A stretch of 64,000 nucleotides of DNA. Origin: Cellulomonas sp. PhB143. GTDB lineage: Bacteria > Actinomycetota > Actinomycetes > Actinomycetales > Cellulomonadaceae. Positions 8,622 through 64,000 of this stretch are shown one piece after another (position 1 is the stretch's first letter; each line of letters opens with the position of its first letter). Location: the NCBI RefSeq assembly GCF_003752595.1, contig NZ_RKIJ01000013.1, forward strand, positions 62,001 through 126,000, written 5' to 3'. The notes under the pieces were generated by a model, which saw only the letters and a program-made list of their open reading frames with translations, had not been told where the DNA came from and searched no databases. Position numbers and translations under genes: made by a program.

Positions 8622-8706
8622 TGTCCGGAGGGGGACTTGAACCCCCACGCCCGTTAAAGGGCACTAGCACCTCAAGCTAGCGCGTCTGCCATTCCGCCAC
8701 CCGGAC
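8622..8706 (-). tRNA. tRNA-Leu (anticodon GAG)
   Basis: An 85-nt class II tRNA read on the minus strand. Acceptor GTCCGGG pairs with TCCGGAC (one G-U), the D arm is GCG/CGC with GGCAGA in the loop, the anticodon stem is CTAGC/GCTAG with loop TTGAGGT (anticodon GAG), a long variable arm follows (TGCCCTTTAACGGGCGT), and the T arm is GGGGG/CCCCC with loop TTCAAGT. Discriminator A; CCA is not encoded. It decodes CUC/CUU leucine codons. Confidence 0.95.
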
Positions 8707-58455: not shown

Positions 58456-59571
58456 GTGCTGTCGACGGCGGCGGTGGAGCAGGCGCGGCGCGACATCGAG
58501 GCGATGTCGCGCTCCGGCATGCCGCTGACGCGGTTCACGGACGAGGCCTGCGCCGCGCTGGCGGTGGTGGTGCCCTTCGTCGCAGGCTGCGTGAGCACCT
58601 TCGACCCGGCCACGACGCTGCTGTCGAGCATCCGCAAGCTCGGTGCGCTCGAGGGGCGCAACGAGCACGACGTCTCGTGGGCGCAGATCGAGTACGCCGG
58701 GGGCGACCCGACCGCGATGGTCAGGCTGGTCGTGGCCGGCACCCCCGCGGTGGGTCTGCACGCCGCGACCGGGGGCCGGGTGGAGCGGTCCGTCCGGATG
58801 GCGGAGCTCATGGTCCCGGCGTTCGACTTCCGCGACGAGGCGCGTGCCGTGTTCACCGACCGCGGCGGTGCGTGGGGCTCGATGTCGCTGTTCCGCGGAC
58901 CGGGCGACCGGCCGTTCTCGGCGGACGAGATCGCGCTGGTCGCGCAGCTGGCGCCGGCGTTCACCCGCGGGACCCGGGCGGGGCTGCTGGCGCAGCGCGC
59001 CGGCGAAGGCCCCCCGACGTCGTCCGGCCCGGCGATCGTCATCGTCGACGCGGCCGGCCGCGTCGTCCAGTCCAGCCCGGGCGCCGACGCCCGTCTGCTG
59101 CAGATGGCCCGCGCCCCGCGCTCGGGGGACCCCCTCGCGCTCGTCCACACGCTCGTCGCCGCCGCGCGCCGTTTCGCCCGCGGCGAGTGCGACGTCAGCC
59201 CGAGCGTGCGCGTCCGCACGCACGACGGCACCTGGCTCGTGCTGCGCGCCTCGCCGCTCAGCGGCGCCGACGACCGCGCCGGGGAGGTCGTGATCACGAT
59301 GGCGGAGGCGCGGCCCCAGGAGGTGATCGACCTGGTCGCCGCCGCGTTCGCACTGACCGCCCGCGAACGGGACGTGACGGTCCTGGTGCTGCGGGGCGCG
59401 GACACCCGGGAGATCGCCCGGGCGATGCGCATCTCCGCCTACACCGTCCAGGACCATCTCAAGTCGGTGTTCGAGAAGGCCGCGGTGACGAGCCGCGGCG
59501 AGCTCGTCGCACGCGTCTTCTTCGACCAGTACGCCCCGCGCCTCGGCGAGCAGCCGGGCGGGCACCGCTGA
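58456..59571 (+). CDS. LuxR-family transcriptional regulator
   Basis: 371 residues. The C-terminal ~65 residues are a LuxR/NarL helix-turn-helix (FALTARERDVTVLVLRGADT, then REIARAMRISAYTVQDHLKS). The N-terminal ~200 residues are GAF-like, with 'MSLFRGPGDRPFSADEIALV' as in actinobacterial GAF-LuxR proteins, followed by a PAS-like part (AIVIVDAAGRVVQSSPGAD). No receiver phosphorylation site. The signal is unknown. GTG 58456 is 7 nt after CAGACT, so perhaps leaderless. Confidence 0.88.
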   Translation: MLSTAAVEQARRDIEAMSRSGMPLTRFTDEACAALAVVVPFVAGCVSTFDPATTLLSSIRKLGALEGRNEHDVSWAQIEYAGGDPTAMVRLVVAGTPAVGLHAATGGRVERSVRMAELMVPAFDFRDEARAVFTDRGGAWGSMSLFRGPGDRPFSADEIALVAQLAPAFTRGTRAGLLAQRAGEGPPTSSGPAIVIVDAAGRVVQSSPGADARLLQMARAPRSGDPLALVHTLVAAARRFARGECDVSPSVRVRTHDGTWLVLRASPLSGADDRAGEVVITMAEARPQEVIDLVAAAFALTARERDVTVLVLRGADTREIARAMRISAYTVQDHLKSVFEKAAVTSRGELVARVFFDQYAPRLGEQPGGHR

Positions 59572-59601: not shown

Positions 59602-59675
59602 TGCCCCGGGTGGGATTCGAACCCACACTGGATCGGGTTTGAGCCGAACGCCTCTGCCGGTTGGGCTACCGGGGC
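59602..59675 (-). tRNA. tRNA with CAA anticodon and short variable arm (Leu-like)
   Basis: 74 nt on the minus strand. Acceptor GCCCCGG/CCGGGGC (7 perfect pairs), T arm GTGGG/CCCAC with loop TTCGAAT, anticodon stem TTCGG/CCGAT (four pairs plus a T-T mismatch) with loop CTCAAAC, giving anticodon CAA (Leu UUG). The D arm (GCC, 11-nt loop ending GGCAGA-like, GGC) is Leu-type, yet the variable region is only 5 nt (CCAGT), unlike class II tRNA-Leu. It may be a non-standard tRNA. Discriminator A; CCA not encoded. Confidence 0.8.
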
Positions 59676-59796: not shown

Positions 59797-59803
59797 GACG
59801 CAC

Positions 59804-60490
59804 GTGAGTGACGACAACGCCAGCGCGAAGAAGCCCGAGCCCCTGGACCTGCCGCCGATGCTGGCGCAGGAGGACGCTCCTGAGCCGACCCCCGCGCCCC
59901 CGGCGCCCAAGAAGGGCGGACGGCGCGCCGTCGTCGCCGAGGACGAGGCCCTCATCCGCATGGACGTCGTGGAGACGCTCCGCGAGGCGGGCTTCGACGT
60001 CGTCGGCGAGGCCGGCGACGGCGAGACGGCCGTGAAGCTGGCGCTCGAGCTCAAGCCCGACGTCGTCGTGATGGACGTCAAGATGCCCGAGCTCGACGGC
60101 ATCTCCGCGGCGGAGCGCATCGGCAAGGCGCACGTCGCGCCCGTCGTGCTGCTGACCGCGTTCTCTCAGACCGAGCTCGTCGAGCGCGCCCGCGACGCCG
60201 GCGCGATGGCGTACGTCGTCAAGCCGTTCACCCCGGCCGACCTGCTGCCGGCCGTCGAGATCGCGATCTCGCGCTACTCGCAGATCTCGGCCCTCGAGTC
60301 GGAGGTCGCCGACCTCGCCGAGCGGTTCGAGACGCGCAAGCGCGTGGACCGCGCCAAGGGCCTGCTGATGACGAAGATGGGCCTGTCGGAGCCGGAGTCG
60401 TTCCGCTGGATCCAGAAGACGTCGATGGACCGCCGCCTGACCATGCGCGAGGTCGCGGACGCCGTGATCGACCAGGTCGGCGGCGCCTGA
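59804..60490 (+). CDS. pdtaR: ANTAR response regulator (PdtaR-like)
   Basis: 228 residues. After a ~40-residue Pro-rich lead comes a receiver domain: acidic pair in 'AVVAEDEALIRMDVVETLRE', phospho-Asp in 'KPDVVVMDVKMPELDGIS', Thr in 'VVLLTAFSQ', Lys in 'AYVVKPFTPADLLPA'. Then a coiled coil and ANTAR domain 'RVDRAKGLLMTKMGLSEPES'. In mycobacteria PdtaR works with kinase PdtaS and binds RNA to control ethanolamine/redox responses. No kinase gene is adjacent. Position between the odd tRNA and polA follows the actinobacterial order. Confidence 0.93.
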   Translation: MSDDNASAKKPEPLDLPPMLAQEDAPEPTPAPPAPKKGGRRAVVAEDEALIRMDVVETLREAGFDVVGEAGDGETAVKLALELKPDVVVMDVKMPELDGISAAERIGKAHVAPVVLLTAFSQTELVERARDAGAMAYVVKPFTPADLLPAVEIAISRYSQISALESEVADLAERFETRKRVDRAKGLLMTKMGLSEPESFRWIQKTSMDRRLTMREVADAVIDQVGGA

Positions 60491-61897: not shown

Positions 61898-64000
61898 GTG
61901 ACTAGCGACGCGCGACCTCGGCTCCTGCTGATCGACGGCCACTCGATGGCATACCGGGCGTTCTTCGCGCTCCCGGTGGAGAACTTCTCCACCACGACGG
62001 GTCAGTCCACCAACGCGGTCTTCGGCTTCACCTCGATGCTCATCAACCTCCTGCGCGACGAGGCGCCCACGCACATCGCGGTGGCCTTCGACGCGGGCAG
62101 CACGACGTTCCGCACCGAGCAGCTGCCGAGCTACAAGGCCGGTCGCGCCGCGACGCCCGAGCCGTTCAAGGGCCAGGTGCCGCTGATCAAGGAGGTGCTC
62201 GAGGCCCTGAACGTGCCGGCGTTCGAGAAGCCGGGCTTCGAGGCCGACGACATCTTCGCGACGCTCGCCACCCGGGCCGCGGCGCAGGGCATGCAGGTGC
62301 TGGTGTGCTCGGGCGACCGCGACGCGTTCCAGCTCGTGTCCGAGGACGTCACGGTGCTCTACCCGAAGCGCGGCGTCTCCGACCTGACGCGCATGACGCC
62401 CTCGGCGGTCGCCGAGAAGTACGGGGTGCCGCCCGAGCGCTACCCGGACCTCGCGGCGCTCGTGGGGGAGACGGCCGACAACCTCCCGGGGGTCCCGGGC
62501 GTCGGGCCCAAGACGGCAGCGAAGTGGATCACCCAGTACGGCGACCTGGAGGCGGTGCTCGACGCGTCCGACGCGATCAAGGGCAAGGCCGGGGAGAGCC
62601 TGCGCGCCCACCTCGAGCAGGTGCGCTCGAACCGGCGGCTGAACGCCCTCCTGCGCGACATGGACCTGCCGGTCGGCCCGGAGGACCTCGCCACGCGCCC
62701 CTGGGACCGGGACGCCGTGCACCGCGTGTTCGACGCGCTGGAGTTCGCGGCCCTGCGCGAGCGGCTGCTCGCGCTCGGCCCCGAGTCGGACGCGCCCGAG
62801 GAGCCGGGGCTGGAGGTCGTGGTCGACGACGTCGCGCCCGGGCAGCTGGGCGTCTGGCTCGGCGCGCGCGCCGGGCGCCGGCTGGGCCTCGACGTCGAGG
62901 GGCGCACCACGCCCGTCGACGGCGACGCGTGGAGCGTCGCGGTCTCGGACGGCGAGCGCGCGGTCACCTGCGACCTCGCCGAGGCCGCACCCGAGGACGA
63001 GAGCGCCCTGGCGTCCTGGCTGGCCGACGCCAGCGCGCCCAAGGTGGTGCACGGTGCCAAGGCGGCCGCGCACGCGCTCGGCGCGCGCGGGCTCGCGCTG
63101 GAGGGCGTCGCCTTCGACACGGGGCTCGCGGCGTACCTGTGCCACCCCGACCAGCGCGGCTACGACCTCGGCGACCTCGCCGTGCGTCACCTGCACCGCG
63201 AGCTGAGGGTCGAGGACGAGGCCGACGCCCAGGGGGCGCTCGACCTCTCGCTCGACGGCTCCGGCGTCGGGCGCCAGGCCGCCGTGCGGGCGACCGCGGT
63301 GCTCGAGCTCGGCACCGTCCTCGCCGGCATGCTCGAGGACCGCGGCGCCACCGGGCTCCTCGCCGAGCTCGAGCTGCCGCTCTCGCGGGTGCTGGGCGAG
63401 ATGGAGTCCGACGGCATCGCGGTCGACTCCGACGAGCTGCGGGGCCTGGAGCGGCACTTCGCCGAGCTCGTCGCGAGCGCCGCCGCGTCGGCGTTCGAGG
63501 TCATCGGCCGCGAGGTCAACCTCGGCTCGCCCAAGCAGCTCCAGGAGGTCCTGTTCGACCAGCTGGAGATGCCGCGGACGAAGCGGATCAAGACGGGCTA
63601 CACGACGGACGCCTCCGCGCTCGCGGACCTGTTCGTCAAGACGGGCCACCCCTTCCTCGAGCACCTGCTCGCGCACCGCGACGCGAGCCGGCTGCGCCAG
63701 ACGGTCGAGGGCCTGCTGCGCTCGGTGGCCGACGACGGCCGGATCCACACGACCTTCCAGCAGACCATCGCGGCGACCGGCCGGCTGAGCTCGACGGACC
63801 CGAACCTGCAGAACATCCCGATCCGCACGGAGGCCGGTCGCCGGATCCGGCGTGCCTTCGTCGTCGGCGACGGCTACGAGACGCTGCTGACGGCCGACTA
63901 CAGCCAGATCGAGATGCGGATCATGGCGCACCTGTCGGGGGACGCCGGGCTGATCGAGGCGTTCCGCTCCGGCGAGGACCTGCACAGCTATGTCGGCTCG
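61898..64000 (+). CDS. polA: DNA polymerase I, N-terminal 701 residues
   Basis: The frame is open to the right edge. It starts GTG 61898 (VTSDARPRLLLIDGHSMAYR). Residues ~1-300 are the 5'-3' exonuclease ('VAFDAGSTTFRTEQLPSYKA', 'VPAFEKPGFEADDIFATLA', 'VLVCSGDRDAFQLV', helix-hairpin-helix 'NLPGVPGVGPKTAAKWI'). Residues ~310-480 are the 3'-5' exonuclease-like domain, of which only part of the acidic set is evident ('LGLDVEG'). The polymerase begins ~490 and reaches motif A 'LLTADYSQIEMRIMAHLSGD'; fingers and motif C lie outside. It works in repair and Okazaki fragment maturation. Confidence 0.97.
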   Translation, partial: MTSDARPRLLLIDGHSMAYRAFFALPVENFSTTTGQSTNAVFGFTSMLINLLRDEAPTHIAVAFDAGSTTFRTEQLPSYKAGRAATPEPFKGQVPLIKEVLEALNVPAFEKPGFEADDIFATLATRAAAQGMQVLVCSGDRDAFQLVSEDVTVLYPKRGVSDLTRMTPSAVAEKYGVPPERYPDLAALVGETADNLPGVPGVGPKTAAKWITQYGDLEAVLDASDAIKGKAGESLRAHLEQVRSNRRLNALLRDMDLPVGPEDLATRPWDRDAVHRVFDALEFAALRERLLALGPESDAPEEPGLEVVVDDVAPGQLGVWLGARAGRRLGLDVEGRTTPVDGDAWSVAVSDGERAVTCDLAEAAPEDESALASWLADASAPKVVHGAKAAAHALGARGLALEGVAFDTGLAAYLCHPDQRGYDLGDLAVRHLHRELRVEDEADAQGALDLSLDGSGVGRQAAVRATAVLELGTVLAGMLEDRGATGLLAELELPLSRVLGEMESDGIAVDSDELRGLERHFAELVASAAASAFEVIGREVNLGSPKQLQEVLFDQLEMPRTKRIKTGYTTDASALADLFVKTGHPFLEHLLAHRDASRLRQTVEGLLRSVADDGRIHTTFQQTIAATGRLSSTDPNLQNIPIRTEAGRRIRRAFVVGDGYETLLTADYSQIEMRIMAHLSGDAGLIEAFRSGEDLHSYVGS

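Follow-up and report, generated by a model that had tools for sequence, protein, structure and literature searches.

A class I tRNA-Leu(CAA) gene beside pdtaR in Cellulomonas sp. PhB143: a probable leucine decoder standing in place of the long-armed form

The long variable arm is regarded as a regular part of tRNA-Leu, and it is so described in the accessible parts of two reviews. A gene departing from this rule lies in a stretch of 64,000 nucleotides from Cellulomonas sp. PhB143 (contig NZ_RKIJ01000013.1, positions 62,001 to 126,000 of the forward strand), which is called the window below and is numbered from its first letter. The gene encodes a tRNA with the leucine anticodon CAA on a class I body. 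The question raised by this locus is whether such a molecule is charged with leucine and reads UUG, or whether it is a relic or serves some other purpose. The comparative analysis pointed to an ordinary UUG tRNA of class I form, most probably charged by leucyl-tRNA synthetase (LeuRS), and the probability of this reading was put at about 0.93. The reading rests on replacement of the long CAA tRNA by the short one, the locus often shared by both, the leucine identity set that is kept, and UUR codons (UUA and UUG) found mostly at leucine-like positions in the pdtaR of relatives that carry the short form. The gene and its parts are given below.

59602-59675, minus strand: tRNA-Leu(CAA), class I body, 74 nucleotides, CCA not encoded (ARAGORN; Rfam RF00005, 54.4 bits)
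59650-59666, minus strand: leucine-type D arm with G10-C25, C11-G24 and C12-G23, unpaired C13/A22, and A14, A15, G18G19, C20 and A20a (sequence)
59639-59641, minus strand: anticodon CAA, which reads UUG (ARAGORN and sequence)
59627-59631, minus strand: variable loop CCAGU, 5 nucleotides, its final base U48 pairing with A15 (sequence)
59602-59602, minus strand: discriminator A73 (sequence)

The gene was called as tRNA-Leu(CAA) on the minus strand by ARAGORN, and the match to the Rfam tRNA model (E value 6e-9) spans exactly the same 74 positions. Its variable loop of 5 nucleotides lies within the 4-5 nucleotides of class I and below the 10 or more of a class II arm, and the class I body reported in a preliminary description of this DNA was confirmed by ARAGORN, Rfam and the sequence. 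The acceptor stem of 7 base pairs and the T stem of 5 base pairs are free of mismatches, as had been described; the U27-U43 mismatch of the anticodon stem had gone unmentioned there. The D stem has 3 base pairs with positions 13 and 22 unpaired. A pattern for class I tRNAs with the anticodon CAA or UAA matched the window once and was matched in none of 100 shuffles. When 23 related sequences were placed on the cloverleaf, 98.9% of the cells were paired and 56 cells were double-changed against 16.8 in shuffles. Pairs changed on both sides numbered 8 against 6.0, which is only a modest excess over chance, and further pair types numbered 15 against 16.0, which is no excess. The gene at 59602-59675 is an intact leucine tRNA gene, neither a relic nor unique.

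Two other categories were considered for this gene and set aside. An allo-tRNA has an 8/4 or 9/3 acceptor/T branch, and the 7 and 5 base pairs found here do not agree with it. A tRNA pseudogene shows broken stems, no conservation and an intact copy elsewhere, a description which does not fit the window tRNA.

The leucine tRNA set of the genome was obtained from a whole-genome Rfam tRNA search (3.2 Mb, 99.8% complete), with every match read by ARAGORN in fetched stretches. The search gave 46 tRNAs, all of which were read. Each leucine anticodon is represented by one gene; the CAG, GAG and UAG tRNAs are long-armed while CAA and UAA are short-armed. The UAA gene (locus L034, G000:C1:293452-293525) is of class I with the same core as the CAA gene and a 5-nucleotide loop GCAGU. 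No long CAA or UAA tRNA was found among the 46 tRNAs of this 99.8% complete assembly. The normal class II CAA gene elsewhere in the genome, which the preliminary description had named as a sign of decay, did not appear. One gene (1003 amino acids, with editing and anticodon-binding domains) passed the LeuRS family cut-off; its product must therefore handle the long CAG, GAG and UAG tRNAs, and the short ones too if they are charged with leucine.

The short form was next sought in relatives. A CAA tRNA identical to that of the window (100%) occurs in 17 of the 61 genomes of the family, its own included (loci L045-L061). By pattern, a short UUR tRNA was found in all 61, with short CAA in 50 and short UAA in 57; DNA-similarity search alone missed 5 of them. 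The strict short pattern matched 55 of the 198 Actinomycetota genomes sampled from the phylum (completeness filter 95). A scan of named genomes gave at least 117 stretches, and the 80 listed ones were read. A tRNA-Leu(CAA/UAA) below 80 nucleotides was called by ARAGORN in 79 of these 80 (none in L191), and 73 belong to Actinomycetota by title. The genera among the listed loci include Mycobacterium, Rhodococcus, Nocardia, Gordonia, Corynebacterium, Bifidobacterium, Micromonospora, Nocardioides, Microbacterium and Planktophila; Streptomyces is represented by two loci, both CAA, and Mycobacterium by short UAA as well as short CAA. The preliminary description had held that an absence of homologues of the same shape would speak for a decayed gene; such homologues abound. 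When a covariance model (R1) was run on 396 phylum genomes, matches at E <= 1e-11 were obtained in 196; this is a rough figure only, because weaker near-threshold matches of unchecked isotype are mixed in, and the distribution given here is based on the patterns and ARAGORN.

The short form was also sought outside the phylum. Six metagenome-assembled genomes (MAGs) of non-actinobacterial title carry it among the listed loci, and for 4 of the 6 the patterns detected a long CAA as well. Of 299 genomes in the phylum to which the Gemmobacter MAG belongs (regarded as Pseudomonadota), 2 matched, namely the chosen centre and one without an ARAGORN tRNA, and in that of the Chloroflexaceae MAG 8 of 201 matched the short pattern, centre included. 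Among the other leucine anticodons collected, sequences below 80 nucleotides comprised 3 UAG, 2 CAG and 1 GAG. Two of the UAG ones, in the Actinomycetota genomes G339 (L136) and G442 (L139), were inspected and are short-armed; the short-arm trait is thus not confined to UUR readers.

The distribution of the two forms indicated replacement. For CAA, exact patterns in the 198 phylum genomes found the short form in 20, the long form in 108 and both in 0, where 10.9 would be expected. For UAA the corresponding counts were 44 short, 27 long and 0 both, with 6.0 expected. Where both anticodons were matched, both were short in 9 genomes, both long in 12, and short UAA stood with long CAA in 22. Short CAA with long UAA was seen in 5, four of them of family f30 and one of genus g33. 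One anticodon only was matched in 103 genomes (long CAA 74, short UAA 13, long UAA 10, short CAA 6). Short CAA was read in five more g33 genomes (L125, L126, L128-L130); the strict pattern overlooks most of these. Genus g33 is taken by us to be Streptomyces, in which case its long UAA would presumably be bldA. Within the family of the window, 8 genomes carry long CAA and none of these 8 carries short CAA, while G034, G036 and G051 matched neither CAA pattern. Both classes of CAA occur inside one genus (G005 long; G030 and G047 short). In the samples, then, the short CAA tRNA replaces the long one, with one or the other per genome and often at the same locus.

This shared locus is the neighbourhood of pdtaR. 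The genes near the tRNA in the window are as follows.

59798-60490, plus strand: pdtaR homologue, a response regulator with ANTAR domain, divergent from the tRNA, start codon not settled (Pfam PF00072, PF03861)
62000-64000, plus strand: polA, running past the window end, with its start upstream of 62000 (Pfam DNA_pol_A and 5'-3' exonuclease domains)
58456-59571, plus strand: LuxR-type (GerE) regulator gene, on the opposite side of the tRNA from pdtaR (Pfam PF00196)

The identity of pdtaR and polA as neighbours was borne out by their Pfam domains, and pdtaR, by its ANTAR domain, is presumably an RNA-binding antiterminator. The preliminary description had also supposed that actinobacteria often keep a tRNA at this place, and the survey agreed with it. 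A pdtaR homologue was present in the fetched stretch for 29 of 30 short CAA loci in the family, 13 of 15 elsewhere in the phylum and 27 of the 33 named loci listed. The short UAA tRNA was accompanied by pdtaR at none of 33 phylum loci (24 + 9) and at 1 of the 46 named loci listed, by a weak match 5 kb off. The long CAA tRNA lies beside pdtaR at 15 of the 27 loci examined, these being 6 of 8 in the family (L300, L303-L307) and 9 of 19 others (L262, L275, L281-L287).

A tree was made of the pdtaR homologues of 84 loci at which a CAA tRNA, short in 69 and long in 15, lies no more than 1.5 kb away. Seven class changes were counted on it by parsimony, of which 4 are forced by well supported branches; this is a quick tree with several long branches, on which the placement of L262 and L275 is uncertain. 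If the well supported branches hold, the class of tRNA-Leu is an exchangeable trait in the phylum, with at least four switches at the pdtaR locus. On the same tree, the contig L151, whose title reads Sphaerisporangium cinnabarinum ATCC 31213, falls inside the family of the window and carries the identical tRNA, and this record may be misnamed.

The core bases of the two forms were compared. In the 80 named short tRNAs listed, C12, C13, A14 and G23 are present in all 80 and A9 in 77, which together with the window sequence upheld the leucine-style D arm of the preliminary description. The 15-48 pair is A-U in 78 of them and G-C in 2. In the long CAA/UAA set, G9 occurs in 42 of 42 and the core reads G12-C23 and G13; among 113 short UAA sequences, G9 was found in 8. 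The class II pattern fixes G12, G13, A14, A15, A22, C23 and C25 and leaves position 9 free, so the uniformity of the long set at the fixed positions is partly by construction. The class I pattern fixes G18, G19, A20a, A22, U33, A35, A36 and A37, and positions 9, 12, 13, 15, 23, 48 and 73 are free in it. Short and long forms have in common U8, A14, A73 and, mostly, A15 and U48. A73 is present in all distinct sequences parsed, 71 of 71 short CAA and 113 of 113 short UAA (184/184); 3 of 239 leucine sequences, one of them short UAA, were unparsed and dropped.

For E. coli tRNA-Leu, the available portion of a review (PMC9976931) names A73, A15-U48, G18G19 and A20a as the elements that matter for identity, and states that variants without the long arm stay active. 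The window tRNA has all of these elements. Its G18G19 and A20a are seen directly, and their conservation in relatives is not independent evidence, as the search pattern requires them. Streptomyces-like short CAA tRNAs in L127, L175 and L182 have G15 for A15 and C at 48. Among the 71 short CAA sequences, 5 have G15 and 5 have C48, and the two were traced to the same tRNA in the 2 G-C cases examined for it; in some short CAA tRNAs, positions 15 and 48 seem to vary together.

The codons that these tRNAs would read were examined in pdtaR itself. The 84 pdtaR homologues contain 118 UUR codons in 39 alignment columns, at which other genomes average 59% leucine against a background of 9.7%. When the 65 homologues at strict short-CAA loci were taken, 98 UUR codons were obtained, the columns of which hold 61% leucine, 15% valine, 11% isoleucine, 5% methionine and 2.6% phenylalanine, and leucine is the majority residue at 62 of the 98.

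A scheme consistent with these observations is that LeuRS would charge the short tRNA through A73 together with the elbow and the hinge, and that UUG would be read by it on the ribosome as usual. The arm appears to be lost or gained jointly with a set of core bases, the short form having A9, C12-G23 and C13 and the long form G9, G12-C23 and G13. This swap may refit the tertiary core to the short loop and so compensate for the missing arm. It is also likely that the class of actinobacterial tRNA-Leu is interchangeable, with several flips at one orthologous locus, the same core refit (9, 12-23, 13) each time and a single LeuRS for both classes. The class II rule would then be false for much of the phylum, and phages may carry the short form between hosts.

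Several observations weigh against the ordinary leucine decoder. The U27-U43 mismatch is the sole one in the anticodon stem but it is present, the minimum free energy fold of the single sequence lacks a standard D arm and improves only modestly on shuffles (z -1.66), and neither a sigma-70-like promoter nor a terminator was found near the CAA gene by a scan which suits GC-rich actinobacteria poorly. Leucine-like character is missing from a few of the 39 UUR columns, which show for instance D/E, S or A. No UUA or UUG codon occurs in the four genes of the window that were checked, and the codon evidence comes from one gene, the pdtaR of relatives. At 12 of the 27 long CAA loci no pdtaR was found in the fetched stretch (L301 and L302 in the family, 10 of 19 elsewhere). 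The exact patterns undercount, as 47 of the 198 phylum genomes matched none, and the P values of the exclusion treat related genomes as independent. The exclusion is also not universal: the Chloroflexaceae MAG G458, outside the phylum, carries short and long CAA in one genome. On its contig L214 some 250 bp separate short Leu(CAA) from short Leu(UAA), with long GAG and CAG next to them, in what looks like an extra tRNA array.

The remaining explanations have to account for the same data. If the gene were a class II tRNA-Leu that has decayed or fallen silent, with the real UUG reader elsewhere, this would agree with the mismatch, the missing CCA and the weak fold. That reader could lie only in the unassembled remainder, no other CAA tRNA having been found, and the identity across 17 of 61 family genomes, the covarying stems and the homologues in many genera of the phylum make decay extremely improbable. 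The class I body, and an anticodon that differs from the GAA of tRNA-Phe only at position 34, would suit a tRNA that works in translation but receives its amino acid from another synthetase, for example PheRS given A35, A36 and A73, with UUG read as another amino acid. The UUR columns of pdtaR, where phenylalanine is rare and leucine prevails, and the retention of leucine identity elements, A15-U48 and A20a included, leave scarcely any room for this. The conserved place beside pdtaR and the strong sequence conservation in the family would favour a tRNA whose main role is regulatory or off the ribosome, as an aminoacyl donor or as a regulatory RNA tied to pdtaR. As the long CAA tRNA is found at the same place, a short body is not a requirement of this position; the UAA tRNA, short and of the same body, lies elsewhere, and the gene would in addition have to be the UUG reader. 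Such a role is considered very unlikely. Thus none of the functions offered in the preliminary description, namely charging by another synthetase, regulation and non-ribosomal chemistry, gained support, the short CAA tRNA behaving as a replacement for the long one.

Import from a phage or plasmid tRNA array that displaced the native gene is unlikely for the window gene; in its favour, short tRNAs-Leu of similar core are found on mobile elements. Gordonia phage Phendrix carries short tRNAs-Leu with UAG and CAA and Streptomyces phage Comrade a short CAA. Enterobacter phage phi63_307 (listed host Cronobacter sakazakii) combines short CAA, AAG and UAA tRNAs-Leu in a single array; these three phages are loci L323-L325. 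The Mycolicibacterium plasmid pTY66_01 (L327:280-3324) has 27 ARAGORN tRNAs, including short Leu(CAG), short Leu(UAA) and long Leu(CAA). Against import stand the homologues of the window gene, which adjoin pdtaR in 29 of 30 family loci, and the phage records, which are 76.5-80.6% alike among the 20 listed of 72 matches. Import may explain how the short form first spread. The plasmid array also has an 86-nucleotide tRNA called as Asn(GTT) with a long variable region.

The ordinary leucine decoder can be set beside known tRNAs. The nearest is the class II tRNA-Leu(CAA) of the same family (L307/L090, G009), which shares with the window tRNA the anticodon and its loop, the acceptor stem sequence, A14 A15, the D-loop GGCAGA, U48, A73 and the place beside pdtaR. 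The window tRNA differs from it in being without the long arm and in having A9, C12-G23 and C13 for G9, G12-C23 and G13. Human mitochondrial tRNA-Leu(UUR) is likewise a leucine tRNA without a long arm, its identity resting on A73 and A14 according to the accessible part of the review cited above (PMC9976931). It has a floppy anticodon branch (in the unmodified transcript) and an organellar LeuRS, whereas the window tRNA is that of a GC-rich bacterium, and an independent origin of the two short forms is assumed. Human Leu-CAA-5-1 shares the CAA anticodon and the lack of a long arm. In the excerpt available (PMC8450103) it is a tRNA-Met whose anticodon changed recently, and perhaps silent, while the window gene keeps leucine identity elements and is the sole CAA tRNA found.

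In mycobacteria, a tRNA-Leu(UAG) of a tRNA cluster resembles the window tRNA in its short variable loop and differs from it in being an extra copy beside a normal long UAG, as given in the portion of the paper at hand (PMC6582537). A 2024 paper on Mycobacterium tuberculosis implies the short form for tRNA-Leu-1 and -4, and its accessible part passes over them without comment (PMC11541572). Among the papers listed in the literature searches, with subscription papers and preprints outside their scope, none was found that describes class I tRNA-Leu in actinobacteria explicitly.

A phylum in which UUR readers are often without the arm, and in which the two forms swap at one locus, provides a natural experiment on the requirements of LeuRS, on the separation of SerRS substrates from those of LeuRS, and on the class change of a tRNA core. 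If the enterobacterial phage tRNAs work, a gammaproteobacterial LeuRS accepts the short form as well. There is also a consequence for annotation, as filters which call a short-armed leucine anticodon a pseudogene or an isotype conflict (compare human Leu-CAA-5-1) could discard the only CAA tRNA of a genome.

Elsewhere in the window, a tRNA-Gly(GCC) called by ARAGORN at 1518-1594 was considered spurious, having no Rfam match and a T loop without TTC. The window also holds one of the long-armed leucine tRNAs of the genome, and its long arm, noted in the preliminary description, was seen again by both programs.

8622-8706, minus strand: tRNA-Leu(GAG), class II, long-armed (ARAGORN and Rfam)
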